Shown here one piece after another: positions 47,991 through 64,000 of a stretch of DNA of 64,000 nucleotides. This stretch comes from Candidatus Sulfotelmatobacter sp. Its GTDB lineage: Bacteria; Acidobacteriota; Terriglobia; Terriglobales; Acidobacteriaceae. The stretch spans positions 62,001-126,000 of the forward strand of contig JAOAPI010000087.1 of the NCBI GenBank assembly GCA_025462865.1, given 5' to 3'. Under the pieces are notes generated by a model. It was not told the DNA's origin, made no database searches, and worked only from the letters and a program-made list of their open reading frames with translations. Within the stretch, counting starts at the first letter, position 1; every line of letters starts with the position of its first letter. The translations under genes were made by a program, and so were the position numbers.

Positions 47991-48746
47991 ATGGTCCCCT
48001 CTAATACTCGTGTATCCAGATCTGCCCCGCTGATTGAAGGAAATCCTGTCAGGAACGAACTTCTGCTGGGTCTGCCCGCCCAGGAATGCGATTCCATATT
48101 CTCCCAGCTCACATTCGTTCAGCTACGGACTCACGATGTCCTTCAGGATTCGGAAGAGCCCATCAAATACGCATATTTTGTCGACAGTGGAATGGTCTCG
48201 ATCCTCAGCGTGATGCGGGACGGAAAAAGCGTAGAAGTTGGACTTACCGGCAAGGAAGGATGCACCGCTTTACAGCTGGTGGCCGGGTTTAAGACTAGCG
48301 ACACCCGAGCCCTGGTTCAGATTGCGGGCACCGCGTTCCGGGTCAACAGCCCAACTCTCGTTAGAGTGTTGCGGGAATGTCCGGCCTTGGCGCGGCGGAT
48401 GCAGCAGTATGCGCTTTTCCTGGCCATGCAGGGCTCACAGGTTGCCGCCTGCAACCGGCTGCATGAGGTGGACGAACGCCTGGCCCGGTGGCTACTGATG
48501 AGCCAGGATCGCATCGGAATCGATGGCGGTGTCGTTCCATTGACTCACGAGTTTCTGGCACACATGCTGGGAACCCGCCGTTCCAGCGTGACAGTCGCCG
48601 CCGGGCTCCTCGCCAAAGCGGGACTGATTACTTACACCCGCGGGCACGTCAAGATCGAAAATCGCGCTCGCCTTGAAGACGCTGCGTGCGAATGCTACGA
48701 CCTCATCGTCAAACACACCGACAGGTGGAAAAAAGAGTCCGCCTAG
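47991..48746 (+). CDS. Crp/Fnr family transcriptional regulator
   Basis: A 251-residue regulator. The N-terminal cNMP-binding fold (about 25-140) has YAYFVDSGMVSILSVMRDGKSVEVGLTGKEGC. The phosphate-binding cassette is atypical for cAMP binding (no RExxGE-like ES/T motif). No Cys cluster for Fe-S is visible, so it is not an Fnr-type oxygen sensor. A winged helix follows (LTHEFLAHMLGTRRSSVTVAAGLLAKAGLI). AAGGAG precedes the ATG. Target genes are unknown; nearby cytochrome, DUF4142 and Kai genes are candidates. Confidence 0.9.
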   Translation: MVPSNTRVSRSAPLIEGNPVRNELLLGLPAQECDSIFSQLTFVQLRTHDVLQDSEEPIKYAYFVDSGMVSILSVMRDGKSVEVGLTGKEGCTALQLVAGFKTSDTRALVQIAGTAFRVNSPTLVRVLRECPALARRMQQYALFLAMQGSQVAACNRLHEVDERLARWLLMSQDRIGIDGGVVPLTHEFLAHMLGTRRSSVTVAAGLLAKAGLITYTRGHVKIENRARLEDAACECYDLIVKHTDRWKKESA

Positions 48747-49142: not shown

Positions 49143-49373
49143 ATGAATGCAGATTACGACTGGCAACGGCCCTACGTTTCCGCCGTGCTTGAGACTGATC
49201 GCTCGAAGCTGATGCGGCGCGTTGAGGACGCGCACGCCGCAATCACCGCGCGGATTCGCGAGATGAGCATGGATCACATGGGTACGCCCGAGGAACGAAT
49301 GGCAATTGAGTTCGCGCTCAGCGGACTAAAAATATTGAGGCAGGATGCACAGCAATCTAAGCAGCATTCTTAA
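49143..49373 (+). CDS. Small helical protein, paralogue of the 30784 gene
   Basis: A 76-residue soluble protein. DWQRPYVSAVLETDRSKLMR and VEDAHAAITARIREM align with the 88-residue protein at 30784. It runs convergently with the response-regulator gene, overlapping its stop by 17 bp. Its placement beside the Kai/two-component operon and the other copy beside the 27-31 kb group hints at a shared stress role, but nothing more is known. Confidence 0.72.
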   Translation: MNADYDWQRPYVSAVLETDRSKLMRRVEDAHAAITARIREMSMDHMGTPEERMAIEFALSGLKILRQDAQQSKQHS

Positions 49374-49734
49374 GCAGCATCTGCAAATCATTAATGAGGG
49401 CCGGCGGACTTGATTTCGTGGCCACCCGGCTTACCCCCGCCGCCAAGGCTTCTTCCGCCAGATTTGAAGCTGCGAATGACGTATACATCAGGATTGGGGT
49501 CTTCGGCATCATCGCGCGGAGTATGCGCGCCGCCTCCAAACCGTTCATGACCGGCATGGAAAGGTCGAGTACGATCAAATCGGGTTTTAGTCGCTCCGCT
49601 TGATCAATCGCTTCGCGTCCGTTTTCCGCTTCCCCGCATACTTGAATATTCTGCTGAGATTCGAGCACGCGCGTGACTGCGCGTCTCATTGCGACATGGT
49701 CGTCGACGATCAACACGCGCTTTTGAACTCCCAT
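49357..49734 (-). CDS. Single-domain response regulator
   Basis: A 125-residue receiver domain without output domain. The acidic pair is Asp11/Asp12 (VLIVDDH), and the phospho-acceptor Asp57 is in LIVLDLSMPVMNG. The switch Thr85 and the conserved Lys107 (VATKSS) are also present. It is 133 bp downstream of the histidine kinase on the same strand. As a stand-alone receiver it must act through a partner protein. It is the last gene of the Kai-linked run. Confidence 0.92.
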   Translation of the reverse strand: MGVQKRVLIVDDHVAMRRAVTRVLESQQNIQVCGEAENGREAIDQAERLKPDLIVLDLSMPVMNGLEAARILRAMMPKTPILMYTSFAASNLAEEALAAGVSRVATKSSPPALINDLQMLLKNAA

Positions 49735-49867
49735 TGCACACCTGGTGCAACTGTCTGCTCTTATGCTAAAAGCAGCAATCGGGTGAAAGGGGTAGCCCTC
49801 ATCCGTGAAGCCTGAGTTCCGGAGTATCAGCTGTAGATAGTTGCAGATACAGCACTGGTTGCGGCAG

Positions 49868-51010
49868 TTACGTCAGTTCGAAAACTGCGCTCACCAGAGT
49901 TCCGGTTTGGTCGGAATGTATTTCCAATGTGCCGCCAAGTTGCCTGACCCGTTCCCGCATGCCGTTAAACCCAAGACCTGATCGAGTGAGCTCCCGTTGT
50001 TTTTCTTCGGGTATTCCCTTCCCATTGTCCTGAATCTCAACCGTGATCTTATTGTCTTCTTTACGGAGACGAATCGAAGCGGCAGCACTTCCCGAATGAC
50101 GGTGAATATTGGTTAAACATTCCTGGACGATGCGGAAAATGGCGATCTCCATTTCAGCCGGCAGTCGCCCGAAATGAGTGGGAATTTCCAGACCCACCTT
50201 GATCTTGCTGCGTTCCGAGAAGCCATCTACGTACCACCGCAAAGCAGAAGTAAGACCCGCCAGATCGAGCAGGGGCGGATGAAGCAAATGGGAAATCGTG
50301 CGGATCTCGCTGGAAACCTGATCGACCAGTGCGACATTGTCAGATAGCGCCCGGGTCGCCTCTGCGTCCAGAAGATGAGTCTGTGCCTGAACAATGCCAT
50401 TGTTCATACTGATCGCAGCCAGCAATTGCCCGACGCTGTCATGCAGTTCGCGGGCGATGCGCTTGCGTTCTTCGTCCTGCATGTTCTGCAGACGCGAGGC
50501 AAATTCAGACTGCTGTTTCCGCACCGTCAGATCAGTGACCAGAACGCCGGTTGCTGACTTATCCCTCGACAATACGCTGAAAGAAAAATTGGCGGGAATT
50601 AAAATGCCGTCGGCAAGACGCAAACGCATTTCGCCTTCACTCGAACCAATCTGGGCGTCGCGCAACAATTTTTGGCATGCGGACTGGTCCGGTGGAGCAA
50701 TAAGATCCTGCAAGAGTCGGCCGATTACTGCCTGCCGCGACGTACCCAATAGTTCGGCCAGGCTTAGATTGCAGTAAACGACGCATCCGCGGCCGTCGAG
50801 CATAGCGGCGCCTTGCTGCATTCTCTCAACCAGGGCGCTATAGGGAAGATCGGAACCCTCCAGCGTATAGACCCGGTGACCCTCCGCTTCCTGCACTACG
50901 AATGCATCGACTGTCCCCTGGCGGATGGCATGGAGTGTCTGCTCGGCCTCTTCCATGAGTCGCATGCTTTTCTCCTGTAGGTCGCTTTTCATCTTAGCTT
51001 TTTCCCGCAA
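49868..51010 (-). CDS. PAS-domain sensor histidine kinase (HisKA_3 type)
   Basis: A 380-residue cytoplasmic kinase with no membrane segments. The order is an N-terminal helix (LHAIRQGTVDAFVVQ), then a PAS domain about 55-165 (YSALVERMQQGAAMLDGRGCVVYC and GVLVTDLTVRK). A HisKA_3 dimerisation domain with phospho-acceptor His190 follows (ERKRIARELHDSVGQ), then a HATPase (ECLTNIHRHSG, VEIQDNGKGIPEE). The TTG start at 51010 has AGGAG 6 bp before it; ATG 50992 is the alternative. It begins 47 bp after kaiB on the same strand, and the response regulator follows. Confidence 0.93.
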   Translation of the reverse strand: MREKAKMKSDLQEKSMRLMEEAEQTLHAIRQGTVDAFVVQEAEGHRVYTLEGSDLPYSALVERMQQGAAMLDGRGCVVYCNLSLAELLGTSRQAVIGRLLQDLIAPPDQSACQKLLRDAQIGSSEGEMRLRLADGILIPANFSFSVLSRDKSATGVLVTDLTVRKQQSEFASRLQNMQDEERKRIARELHDSVGQLLAAISMNNGIVQAQTHLLDAEATRALSDNVALVDQVSSEIRTISHLLHPPLLDLAGLTSALRWYVDGFSERSKIKVGLEIPTHFGRLPAEMEIAIFRIVQECLTNIHRHSGSAAASIRLRKEDNKITVEIQDNGKGIPEEKQRELTRSGLGFNGMRERVRQLGGTLEIHSDQTGTLVSAVFELT

Positions 51011-51057
51011 CTGATTCTCCTAGTGATAGCCCGGGAAAAACTCCCAAATGCATTTCG

Positions 51058-51417
51058 TTATTCCGACGACGCGGGACGCAATTGTAATCCGACCAAAGCA
51101 CGTTCCGTATCGCGAAGATCACCCACAATTTTGCGCAGCGGTTGAGGTAGTTTCCGCACCAGCGTAGGAATAGCAAGAATTTGATCGCCCGCCGCCAACT
51201 GAGGATGTTTCACTAGATCTACTACCTCAATATTGTACCGCCCTTGTAAATTCTCTTCACAAATCTTTTTGAGGTTGGCGAAGGCGGCGACAGACCGGGG
51301 AGTCTGGCCCGCGATGTACAAGCGAAGTTCCCATACCTCGCTCGGCTGGGCTCCGCTGTCGGCAATTTCCTGCAGACTGTGCGGCTGCGACTCCGCACTT
51401 TTGGCTGGTTTTTTCAT
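51058..51417 (-). CDS. kaiB: Circadian clock-type protein KaiB
   Basis: A KaiB-family thioredoxin-like protein of 119 residues. [72 protein letters not shown], read in pieces, is the complete KaiB fold, with the conserved PQLA and IPTLVRKLP. It would bind the CI ring of KaiC. The ATG at 51417 overlaps the kaiC stop by one base (TGATG). The N-terminal 28 residues are an extension absent from cyanobacterial KaiB. No kaiA is in the window. Confidence 0.95.
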
Positions 51418-53171
51418 CAATTCCTCTTTCTGGAACGGGTAATCCCATCGTCGGTATCGGCTTTGCGGCTCCGGGCCATGACGGCGCGATTCTCCTCGAC
51501 GCTTTTTTCCCGCGCCACCTCTAACTTTCCGGAGCTTGCAGCTTCCTCTTCCTCGATCTCAAACTCTTTGCGCATAGATACAATCCTGGCTTCCAGCGCT
51601 TCGCGCTTGCGTTCACGGTCGCGCTCTCGAAGGTCCGCCTCTTGTTTGCGTACCATGGCGGCGGCCTTTTCGCGCGCCTCCTGTGACAGACGCGATGACC
51701 CCGTCAGCACACCATCTGGACCCACATACACATCAAGCAAATCCACTCCCTGCGGGGTAAGAAGGAACTCGCGCAACTGGTTCGAATGCGCCATGCCTCG
51801 CGACTTGAGGACGTACAAGGCCCGGTTCCGCTCTCCGCCCAGTTCAATGTCGCGCATGAAAAGCCAGGTATCGACGATGGATGAGATCTCAACGTCGGTC
51901 CGCTCCAGCGCCTCTCCTCCAGAGGTGAGGTTGGTCAGAAACGCGGTAATTCCCCGTTGCTTCAGGAAGTCAATCAGCCGGATCAACATGATATGTGCGT
52001 CGCGTCCGGTCCCAGCCTGTACAAGGCTGCCAACGGGATCGAGCACCACTACCTGCGGGTCGAATTCGTTGACGATCTTGTGAATGATTGCCAGGTGCAT
52101 CTCCAACCCATAAAACATGGCGCGGCTGGAATGGAACTTGAGAAGACCTTTTTTGCTCCACTGCTCGAGGTTCAAGCCAATGGAGCGCATGTTGCGAATG
52201 AGCTGTCCGGGCGATTCTTCGAACGAAAAATAGAGGCAACGCTCTCCGCGCCGGCATGCGGCATCGACAAAGTGAGCGGAGAGGCTGGTCTTACCAGTTC
52301 CTGCAGTGCCCGAAACCAGAATTGTTGTGCCCCGATAGAATCCTTCTCCGCCAAGCATCGTATCCAGCCGCGGAACACCACTGGAGACTCGTTCTTCACT
52401 CACCTCATGCTGCAGCCCAAGAGATGTGACGGGGAGGACGCTGAAGCCGCCTTCGTCAATCAGAAATGGATATTCGTTAGTGCCGTGAGCCGTTCCGCGG
52501 TATTTAACAATACGCAGACGGCGGGTGGAAACCTGATCAATTACGCGGTGATCCAGCAGAATCACGCAATCGGATACATATTCCTCCAACCCGTGGCGGG
52601 TTAGAGCGCCTTCGCCGCGCTCCGCGGTAATGACGGCGCTTACGCCCCTGTCCTTCAGCCAGCGAAATAGACGCCGCAATTCCGCGCGCAGAATGCCCTC
52701 ATTCTGCAATCCGGCGAAAAGATTTTCGATAGTATCCAGCACAACGCGTTTCGCACCGATGGAGTCGATGGCGGCGCCCAGCCGTATGAAAAGGCCTTCC
52801 AGATCGTAGTCGCCGGTTTCGTCAATTTCGCTGCGTTCAATACGAACATAATCAACGGCAATCTTCTTTTGGGCCGCCAGTTCATCGAGATCAAATCCGA
52901 GGGACCGAACGTTCTGAGCGAGTTCGGCGGCAGTCTCCTCAAATGCCATGAAGACGCCTGGCTCGTCGTACTTCATGGCTCCACTCACCAAAAACTCCAT
53001 GGAGAGCAGAGTCTTGCCAGCCCCCGCGCTACCGCATATGAGTGTCGGACGACCGCGTGGAAATCCGCCTCCGGTTATCTCATCGAGACCTTGAATGCCC
53101 GTCGGTGCCTTGGGCAAACTTGTAACGGAAGTATTTTTTTTTGCCAGGGCTTTGGGTGTGGCAGCTTTCAC
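51417..53171 (-). CDS. kaiC: Circadian clock-type ATPase KaiC with C-terminal coiled-coil tail
   Basis: A 584-residue double-RecA-domain KaiC. CI Walker A is GSAGAGKT (47-54), with catalytic Glu78/Glu79 (FEET). CII Walker A is GTAGTGKT (288-295), with Glu318/Glu319. The phosphorylation region aligned with cyanobacterial T426-S431-T432 reads T425, S430, S431 in [13 protein letters not shown], so both sites are phosphorylatable but the Ser-Thr pair is Ser-Ser. Residues about 500-584 are a charged coiled coil ([15 protein letters not shown]) not present in cyanobacterial KaiC (519 aa). It is first in the kaiC-kaiB-kinase-regulator operon and starts with GTG. Confidence 0.95.
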
Positions 53172-61799: not shown

Positions 61800-64000
61800 A
61801 TGAAGAGGTCACTCGTCGCGGCTGTGGCAGCACTCACGCTTCTCTGCGCTTTTTGGACGCCGAACGCATCGGCCCAGGCAGTCTACGGCAGCATCCTTGG
61901 CACAATCACCGACCCCTCCGGCGCCGCCGTTGCCAATGCGAAGGTGACGGTTATCGATCAGCGCAAAGGAACCAAAGACGAAACCACAACGAACGACAGT
62001 GGTAACTATAGCGTCACTCACTTGATTCCCGATGTCTATACCGTCCAAGTAGAAGGGTCCGGTTTCAAGAGGCTGGAATTCAAAGACGTCATCGTTAACG
62101 CGGACGCCGGTTCCAACGTGAATGGCCAATTCCAGGTCGGCTCGGCCAGCGAGCAAGTCGAAGTCACCAGCGAAGCTCCTCAGCTCAAGACGGATCGCGC
62201 GGACATCGCGACTGAATTCAACGCCAAGTATGTGGAAGATATACCGATCCTCAACCGCAACTTCACGACGTTGCAGCTCATGGCGCCGGGTTCGCAGAAA
62301 ATCGTGGGCTGGAGTCATGCCGCGACTGAAAATCCCCAAGGCAGCCAACAGATTTTCACACAGGGACAACACTTCAGCGGCACAGCGTTCGAGCTTGACG
62401 GCACCGACAACCAGGACCCTATCCTTGGGATTATCGTTGTAAATCCGAACCTGGACGCCATTACGGAAGCCAAAGTCTCATTGCAGAATTACGACGCTGA
62501 GTTTGGTAAGGCTGTGGCCAGCGTGGTGACCGCGCAGACCAAGTCCGGCAGCAATGACCTTCACGGCAGCGGCTTCTGGTTCCGGCGAACCGATGCCACT
62601 CAAGCGCGCGACCCCTTTACCCAATACCAGAAAGATCCTTTAACCCACCGCTTCATTCCCAGTTCGAAATGGCAACAGTTCGGCGGCACGATTGGTGGCC
62701 CGATCATCAAGAACAAATTGTTTTTTTTCGGCGACTACCAAGCCACGCGCCAAACCAACGGCGTGAGCGGAACATTTACCCTTCCCACGAACCAAGTGAT
62801 TAGCACGTGTACCCAAACCACGGGAAACTGCGATCTCAGCCAATATCTGACGGCTGGCGTGAACGGCGGCGGACAGGCTTATGACCCGGCGACCGGCAAT
62901 CTGCTCACCGGTGCGGGACGCACAGCATTCGCTGGAAATTTGATTCCGAATACCAGAATCTCTCCCGCAGCGCGTGCGGTCCTGGCTGCTTTCCCCGTCC
63001 CTGCCAGCGGTGGTACGGTTCTGAATAACTTTATCGGCTCCGGTTCTGGTCCTTTTTCGCAGAACAGCTTCGACACCCGTATCGACTATGCCGCAACCTC
63101 GACGGTTAGCGTCTTCGGGCGTTTCAGTCTCGACTACTTCAAGCTCTCAGGGAAAGGATTGCTAGGCGCTGTGGGAGGCCCTGGTAACGGCCTGCTTGGG
63201 CTGGCTGGTAGTTCCATCACCCACAATTACAGCTTGGCCAGCGGTTTTACAAAAACTTTCAGCAGTTCGCTATTAATGGACTTCCGTTTCGGCTACTTCA
63301 AATACAACCCGCAGACGCAGAAGCCTGATGGCGGCACGCCCATGACGGCGTTCGGAATCCCGGGCGCCAACATTCCGGGTGACCCCAAAACTAACGGTCT
63401 TGGTACGTTCCTGCTCGGCGCCGATCCGATCAGCGGCGCGGGTGGCGCTCCGGCTAACAGCGGCCAGGGTCTGGTGATTTCAAGCTTCGGTGACGGGCTT
63501 GGCGTGGCGCGCTGCAATTGCCCCTTAACCGAAAGCGAACAGCAGTTCCAATTTGTTGACAATTGGACCAAGACCAAAGGAAACCACATTATTAAGTTTG
63601 GGGCCGACATCCGCTACGCAGAGAATTTGAGGATCCCGAGCGATAATAATCGAACCGGCGAATACAACTTCAGTCCCCAGGCAACCTCGAACGGGGGCTC
63701 AGGGGGCCTTGATCTGGCAACGTTCTTGTTGGGTGACGTAACCTCCTTCGCTCGCTACGTCAACAATCCTAATATTGCGGGCGCTAACAATGCGGCTGAG
63801 CGCCAGAAGCGTTGGTTCTTCTACGGACAAGACACTTTTCGTGCCACTTCCAAACTCACCGTTAACTTTGGGCTGCGTTGGGAAATCTACTTCCCTGAAT
63901 CAGTCAATGCGAAAGGAAACGGAGGCTTCGCCAACATCGTCGACAACGGCGGAACGGGCGGCATCCGCGTCGGCGGTTTCGGTCCATACGGCCTGAACGG
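61800..64000 (+). CDS. TonB-dependent receptor with N-terminal carboxypeptidase-regulatory domain (runs off the window)
   Basis: Starts at ATG 61800 after AGGAGGAAG. The frame is open to 64000 (about 733 codons so far), so the C-terminus is missing. The signal peptide is MKRSLVAAVAALTLLCAFW...ASA. The carboxypeptidase-regulatory (CarboxypepD_reg) domain follows (SILGTITDPSGAAVANAKVT, NYSVTHLIPDVYTVQVEGSGF). Then come the plug (VEDIPILNRNFTTLQLMAPG, GTAFELDGTDNQDPIL) and beta-barrel strands. This is the Oar/SusC-like receptor type abundant in Acidobacteria, importing oligosaccharides or other polymers. Its substrate is not readable. Confidence 0.93.
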   Translation, partial: MKRSLVAAVAALTLLCAFWTPNASAQAVYGSILGTITDPSGAAVANAKVTVIDQRKGTKDETTTNDSGNYSVTHLIPDVYTVQVEGSGFKRLEFKDVIVNADAGSNVNGQFQVGSASEQVEVTSEAPQLKTDRADIATEFNAKYVEDIPILNRNFTTLQLMAPGSQKIVGWSHAATENPQGSQQIFTQGQHFSGTAFELDGTDNQDPILGIIVVNPNLDAITEAKVSLQNYDAEFGKAVASVVTAQTKSGSNDLHGSGFWFRRTDATQARDPFTQYQKDPLTHRFIPSSKWQQFGGTIGGPIIKNKLFFFGDYQATRQTNGVSGTFTLPTNQVISTCTQTTGNCDLSQYLTAGVNGGGQAYDPATGNLLTGAGRTAFAGNLIPNTRISPAARAVLAAFPVPASGGTVLNNFIGSGSGPFSQNSFDTRIDYAATSTVSVFGRFSLDYFKLSGKGLLGAVGGPGNGLLGLAGSSITHNYSLASGFTKTFSSSLLMDFRFGYFKYNPQTQKPDGGTPMTAFGIPGANIPGDPKTNGLGTFLLGADPISGAGGAPANSGQGLVISSFGDGLGVARCNCPLTESEQQFQFVDNWTKTKGNHIIKFGADIRYAENLRIPSDNNRTGEYNFSPQATSNGGSGGLDLATFLLGDVTSFARYVNNPNIAGANNAAERQKRWFFYGQDTFRATSKLTVNFGLRWEIYFPESVNAKGNGGFANIVDNGGTGGIRVGGFGPYGLN

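Follow-up and report, generated by a model that had tools for sequence, protein, structure and literature searches.

A KaiC2-type kaiC-kaiB-kinase operon in a Candidatus Sulfotelmatobacter genome and its kinase module associated with KaiC

The cyanobacterial KaiABC clock with its SasA-RpaA pathway comprises KaiB, a double-domain KaiC and a kinase that serves as the output. A KaiBC locus of another kind lies in Candidatus Sulfotelmatobacter sp. (Acidobacteriota; assembly GCA_025462865.1), within positions 62,001 to 126,000 of contig JAOAPI010000087.1; this whole stretch of 64,000 nucleotides is called the window, and the coordinates below are those of the window. Four genes follow one another head to tail on its minus strand, namely kaiC, kaiB, the gene of a soluble PAS/HisKA_3 kinase and that of a single-domain receiver. 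Unlike the cyanobacterial system, this one has no KaiA, its KaiC carries Ser-Ser instead of Ser-Thr, and no KaiB-like domain of the SasA type is matched by Pfam in the kinase.

The KaiC of Rhodobacter (Cereibacter) sphaeroides (KaiC-RS) has been described as having a C-terminal coiled-coil tail, Ser-Ser sites, a dodecameric form, a register shift and an hourglass driven by ATP/ADP (PMC10076222; papers given here by PMC number are cited for excerpted passages). The main text of that paper, as excerpted, never uses the term "histidine kinase" and does not describe the route by which the KaiBC state reaches the cell. Plasmid pRSKD131A of R. sphaeroides KD131 (KaiBC structures 8dba, 8fwi and 8fwj) shares with the window the order kaiC-kaiB-PAS kinase, the Ser-Ser sites and a tail of equal length. 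It differs in having a kinase with an HWE-type rather than a HisKA_3 annotation, a photosynthetic host and, after the kinase, a gene on the other strand and no receiver. The proto-circadian KaiBC system of Rhodopseudomonas palustris also consists of kaiC, kaiB and a PAS histidine kinase with no KaiA (PMC4794148), and its KaiC is named KaiC2 in PMC5520375; this host is a phototroph, unlike that of the window, and the likeness is one of description only.

A survey of kaiC contexts reports that almost every kaiBC locus outside cyanobacteria has a gene for a kinase or a GGDEF/EAL protein immediately downstream, and the window falls in with the first group defined there (PMC3164672). In the excerpted section, the survey assigns a conserved N-terminal region to the KaiB-less group rather than to KaiB-linked kinases, and Acidobacteriota are not named there. 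The order kaiC-kaiB-PAS kinase is therefore already published, rarity of such an operon is not supported, and the window operon, whose kinase is of the HisKA_3 type, joins the KaiC2/R. sphaeroides KaiBC family as an additional member. Among open-licence literature on KaiC and KaiB in acidobacteria, one paper, as excerpted, reports kai genes only for a cyanobacterial bin. What the comparison adds is a module at the kinase N-terminus that is linked to KaiC across genomes and is followed by swappable output domains.

The operon and its KaiC

kaiC (51417..53171, minus strand) has a GTG start and encodes 584 residues with two RecA-like ATPase domains (Pfam ATPase twice) and a coiled-coil tail. The two Walker A motifs begin at residues 47 and 288 and the catalytic Glu pairs are 78/79 and 318/319, as first annotated. 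By phmmer, the best sequence match in the PDB is KaiC-RS (8dba, 676.7 bits, residues 19-569 on 5-554), and this alignment spans the tail and is gapless there; the S. elongatus KaiC scores ~343 bits. The first 17 Foldseek matches of the AlphaFold model, built from 41 aligned rows with a mean pLDDT of 80.2, are likewise KaiC-RS chains, from the dodecamer (8fwj, 8fwi, 8dba) and from the truncated form (8db3). The two RecA-like domains, Ser-Ser, the C-terminal coiled coil, the linked kaiB and the absence of kaiA together identify a KaiC2/KaiC-RS type protein.

In the alignment with KaiC-RS, T425, S430 and S431 fall on T410, S415 and S416 of the chain, the two serines being the published S413/S414. 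Their codons occupy 51897-51899, 51882-51884 and 51879-51881, so that the putative phosphorylation-site region spans 51879..51899 on the minus strand. The retention of these residues, which phosphorylation would require, was claimed at the outset and is supported through KaiC-RS, and we take them to correspond to cyanobacterial T426/S431/T432, an assumption that relies on the cyanobacterial numbering and on the PMC5520375 passage. That passage gives Ser-Ser at the S431/T432 positions of KaiC2 (PMC5520375). Conservation was followed in 118 loci, made up of the window, the best 80 of 573 KaiC relatives from named contigs, and stretches from other genomes (120 were collected and the duplicates L158 and L112 dropped); contig ends make the locus counts lower bounds. 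With the two other-family KaiCs of the window genome removed and R. sphaeroides added, 117 KaiC rows were aligned. Ser occupies the S430 column in 111 rows and the S431 column in 112. At T425, 77 rows carry Thr and 32 carry Ser. Six of the eight KaiC-RS network residues (S413, S414, W419, V421, Y436, L438, V449 and R450 in PMC10076222) are identical in the window KaiC, as S430, S431, W436, Y453, L455 and R467; V421 and V449 are replaced by F438 and L466 (all read by hand from the 8dba alignment).

The tail (residues 491-584, 51420..51701, minus strand) was initially described as an extra element. The structural prediction proposed at that time yields a single helix from 491 to 569, and sequence, helix prediction, Foldseek and PMC10076222 agree in equating it with the coiled coil already described for KaiC2/KaiC-RS, so it is neither extra nor novel. 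Between anchors 491 and 569 there are 78 residues in 103 of the 104 tailed rows and 74 in the distant KaiC of L125; Arg stands at 569 in all 104, the other 13 rows being gapped at an anchor (tailless or incomplete). The hydrophobic residues recur with a period of 3.50, a power equalled in 25 of 2000 permutations. Fixed length alone is not special, because of three equally long stretches taken from the folded core two are as constant (114, 114 and 106 of 117 rows), but freedom from insertions should be expected of a coiled coil that switches register.

The operon has no kaiA, as first stated, and the whole genome (a 6.08 Mb draft, 98.45% complete) gave no KaiA match at E <= 0.001 in a search whose positive control was matched in S. 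elongatus. It contains one KaiB. No bchL exceeds the curated cut-off, two weak matches lying below it. Two further double-domain KaiC genes occur in the genome, L126 (G000:C174) and L127 (G000:C13): one has no KaiB or kinase detected nearby, and the other overlaps a histidine kinase gene and resembles the KaiB-less kaiC-Nt_HK group of PMC3164672.

Gene order, KaiB paralogues and the receiver

kaiB (51058..51417, minus strand; PF07689, 94 bits) overlaps the kaiC stop with its ATG as TGATG, a TTG 3 bp upstream being an alternative start; its closest PDB match is KaiB-RS in 8fwj. The kinase gene follows after 47 bp and the receiver gene after a further 133 bp. Pfam assigns KaiB to the second product, PAS, HisKA_3 and HATPase_c to the third and Response_reg to the fourth, and with the coordinates this confirms the initially described layout of four genes. 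A scan of the operon for promoters and terminators gave a signal within the shuffled range, and no RNA families or tRNAs were found in the window. A CRP/FNR-type regulator gene (47991-48746, plus strand) is convergent with the receiver gene.

The linkage of kaiC, kaiB and kinase is real and widely conserved. A same-strand KaiB (>40 bits) lies within 7 kb downstream of kaiC in at least 103 of the 118 loci, two or more KaiB genes occur in at least 70, and a relative of the N-terminal 172 residues of the window kinase (>=40 bits) in at least 88. Where at least 3.5 kb was available on both sides of kaiC (78 loci), the kinase relative lies downstream on the same strand in 63 and upstream in none, in agreement with PMC3164672 and, for R. 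palustris and R. sphaeroides, with PMC4794148 and PMC5520375. Nine loci, mostly of Ignavibacteriota (L056, L064, L074, L077, L080, L083, L085, L091, L108), have a tailed KaiC with no KaiB or module kinase detected adjacent.

Where a locus has two KaiB genes and no more (68 loci, for example L030, L073 and L096), their order is fixed, with one paralogue (B1) beside kaiC and the other (B2) beside the kinase. The first copies are nearer to B1 in 68 of 68 cases and the second nearer to B2 in 67, and among 33 single KaiBs 26, including that of the window, are nearer to B1 and seven to B2.

The receiver (49357..49734, minus strand; 125 aa, PF00072) has the residues D11/D12, D57, T85 and K107 and is a doubtful member of the system. 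A reading frame that contains a receiver lies within 300 bp behind the kinase in at least 20 of the 118 loci, some of these frames being long and not simple receivers. Of the five closest relatives that share the kinase type of the window (L029, L109, L159, L160, L202) only L109 has an adjacent receiver. It is 42% identical to that of the window (89.4 bits) and leads the next match in the L109 genome (88.0) by 1.4 bits; in all five further genomes searched, a match elsewhere scores higher, up to 110.6 bits, the window's own receiver being set aside. As a general claim, a conserved receiver partner is thus rejected, and the synteny check proposed initially upholds the kaiC-kaiB-kinase order but largely not the receiver. 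Of the complete output path envisaged on one transcript, the linkage is conserved as far as the kinase but not for the receiver, and the promoter and terminator scan adds nothing above shuffled sequence. In L163, L164, L166, L172 and L173 a regulator of 210-240 aa begins -3 to 12 bp behind the kinase, and in these loci and L208, L209 and L210 the regulator combines receiver and GerE DNA-binding domains (8 of 8 by Pfam), which gives these relatives a direct route to DNA. The window receiver, which has no DNA-binding domain, may be a newcomer.

The operon-type KaiC is patchily distributed, in 7 of 45 genomes of the genus and 51 of 397 of the order. In a quick tree the window and four further acidobacteria form a group with support 98, nested in a set of nine that includes a Nitrospira, a Planctomycetia and a proteobacterial metagenome-assembled genome. 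The 35 acidobacterial rows imply 10 label changes on this tree, of which well supported branches force only two; recent horizontal arrival was rejected as a conclusion, since the tree does not separate transfer from loss.

A kinase module associated with KaiC

The third gene (49868..51010, minus strand; TTG start) encodes a two-component histidine kinase of 380 residues with the phosphoacceptor His190 and HisKA_3 and HATPase_c domains. It is likely soluble, its best 19-residue hydrophobic mean being 1.14 and no stretch strongly hydrophobic, and its catalytic domain matches VraS (4gt8, rmsd 1.8) in Foldseek. The N-terminal module consists of a pre-PAS part (residues 16-56, 50843..50965) and a PAS domain (residues 57-162, 50525..50842; Pfam PAS and PAS_9), both on the minus strand. 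No best Pfam stretch begins before residue 57, which leaves residues 16-56 with no Pfam family. The pre-PAS part is nevertheless conserved: across 49 aligned module regions, out of 88, it carries a motif of approximately AIxxGxVDA with an invariant Asp (D20), and A53 and N66 are invariant in the PAS part (alignment numbering). The module profile matches PAS domains in the PDB, none of which reaches before profile position 29 among 60 of 122 rows. In the AlphaFold model a helix (3-30) and two strands (36-41 and 44-49) precede the PAS domain. Foldseek with this model gave nothing specific to the module, the long matches being generic LOV and other sensor kinases and phytochromes at rmsd 14-32.

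The module and KaiC travel together. In the window genome the module scores 133.6 bits once, with the next match at 30 bits. Among the 397 genomes of the order, 42 have the module (E <= 1e-15), 51 have KaiC (E <= 1e-100) and 38 have both (Fisher p 2.6e-37, with relatedness ignored). A single module match is found in 41 of the 42 module genomes, and the remaining one has two modules and two KaiCs. Of the four genomes with the module only, three have a piece or remnant of KaiC beside it: in G250 (rearranged pieces) and G600, KaiC parts adjoin the module at a contig end, and in G609 (L205), where KaiB and the module protein are open, kaiC seems cut down to its beginning, a reading frame matching KaiC residues 3-42 (E 7e-6, one-to-one comparison). 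In the fourth, G531, the contig ends beside the module. A phylum sample of 247 genomes, which overlaps the order sample, has the module in 13, all among its 18 KaiC genomes, and two of the 13 carry a second copy. In a set of 72,556 plasmid records the window module has 12 matches (E <= 1e-8), and all 12 plasmids carry kaiC, nine being from Cereibacter sphaeroides; the kinase of R. sphaeroides KD131 matches the module with 40.7% identity. No description of this association was found in open-licence literature, which is weak evidence of novelty.

What follows the module varies. In 71 of the 88 kinases run through Pfam (very long, near-duplicate and some cut ones being left out), the domains detected include HATPase_c in 49, HisKA in 29, HisKA_3 in 14, HisKA_2 in three, receivers in 18, GGDEF in six, EAL in five, HD in three, and sigma-54 and KaiB in one each, among 25 of the 34 families found. 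Several Bacteroidota modules (L037, L047, L050, L051, L060, L062 and others) stand alone behind two KaiB genes, in proteins of ~235 aa that are too short for a catalytic domain. In L097 (2597-5332) the kinase-side KaiB, whose sequence is nearer to B2, is fused to the module and then to GAF, GGDEF and EAL domains, and this protein is therefore not a histidine kinase. The fusion links KaiB and the module physically, although as a single case it could be an assembly oddity.

Timer, switch or unrelated neighbours

The reading that we favour, with somewhat better than even confidence, is that the operon encodes a KaiC2-type KaiBC timer like that of R. sphaeroides, which runs independently of KaiA and comes with a dedicated signalling kinase, and that the timer is predicted to be an hourglass reset by energy state. 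By analogy with KaiC-RS, the KaiC would form a double hexamer held together by the C-terminal coiled coil. At high ATP/ADP it would autophosphorylate at S431/S430, and KaiB binding with a register shift of the coiled coil would lead to dephosphorylation; phosphorylation driven by ATP/ADP and dephosphorylation triggered by KaiB would together make the proposed hourglass, whose kinetics are likewise predicted. The module, as a candidate part that may sense the KaiBC state, would use its helix and β hairpin ahead of PAS to contact KaiC-KaiB, read their state and control His190 in HisKA_3. The phosphoryl acceptor would probably be a receiver, whether the neighbour in the window or the product of a distant gene; a physiological output is likewise proposed.

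On a wider scale, the KaiC2-type timers of bacteria and archaea might share a dedicated, unnamed reader module that docks on KaiC-KaiB and feeds host-specific outputs (kinase types, c-di-GMP enzymes, HD proteins or none); we rate this joint proposal at a little under an even chance. Here B2, where present, would act as a SasA-like adaptor, as suggested by its fusion to the module in L097, and in the lineage of the window the timer would be read through B1 alone into a HisKA_3 (NarL-class) kinase.

Several observations weigh against a timer that is read through the module. Most of the modelled pre-PAS part, and most of its hairpin, has a pLDDT under 50 and gives a hint only of its fold. The rhythms of R. 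palustris are poorly sustained (PMC4794148). In the order sample 13 of the 51 KaiC genomes have no module match, and so KaiBC can exist without the module. In 12 of these 13 (G574 being excluded) the neighbourhood was inspected and no module adjoins kaiC: ten have none near kaiC, eight of them keeping KaiB, and G529 (L161) and G477 (L177) have partial KaiCs with no module beside them. At least four contigs (those of L224, L227, L228 and L177) stop shortly after kaiC or kaiB, and a module could lie beyond. Four of 16 kaiC plasmids (E <= 1e-60) have no module match, among them a Falsirhodobacter plasmid with kaiC, kaiB and a sensor kinase.

The direction of signalling could also be the reverse, with the kinase as an input device whose PAS domain would detect a redox or metabolic signal and pass it to KaiBC. 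PAS is a common sensor fold, but we consider this arrangement unlikely, as the module is constant while the catalytic output varies (HisKA, HisKA_3, HisKA_2, GGDEF/EAL, HD or none), a pattern in keeping with one common upstream state that feeds several outputs, and eight other acidobacterial loci have a receiver and GerE regulator directly behind the kinase. A stronger competitor, to which we would give roughly one chance in three, keeps the proposed mechanism and uses the same proteins as a stress or energy switch that plays no part in daily timing. It is favoured by the stress role of KaiC2 in Legionella cited by PMC5520375, by the lack of a bchL over the cut-off, by the patchy occurrence of the KaiC in genus and order and by the CRP/FNR-type nature of the convergent neighbour. 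That the four genes are mere neighbours, with kinase and receiver forming an unrelated two-component pair, is very improbable as a whole. The argument holds for the receiver, given the 133 bp gap before it and its lack of conservation there; for the kinase it is contradicted by the 63 downstream against no upstream positions and by the single module match in nearly every module genome. A circadian KaiABC clock was rejected, there being no KaiA and Ser-Ser in place of Ser-Thr.

A specialist could act on the association of the module with KaiC. The comparison offers a concrete candidate contact, that of kinase residues 1-170 with KaiB/KaiC, and the module provides a sequence signature with which readers of KaiBC may be found. 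If this contact holds, timers that are reset by energy state and coupled to interchangeable outputs would be common among non-phototrophs.

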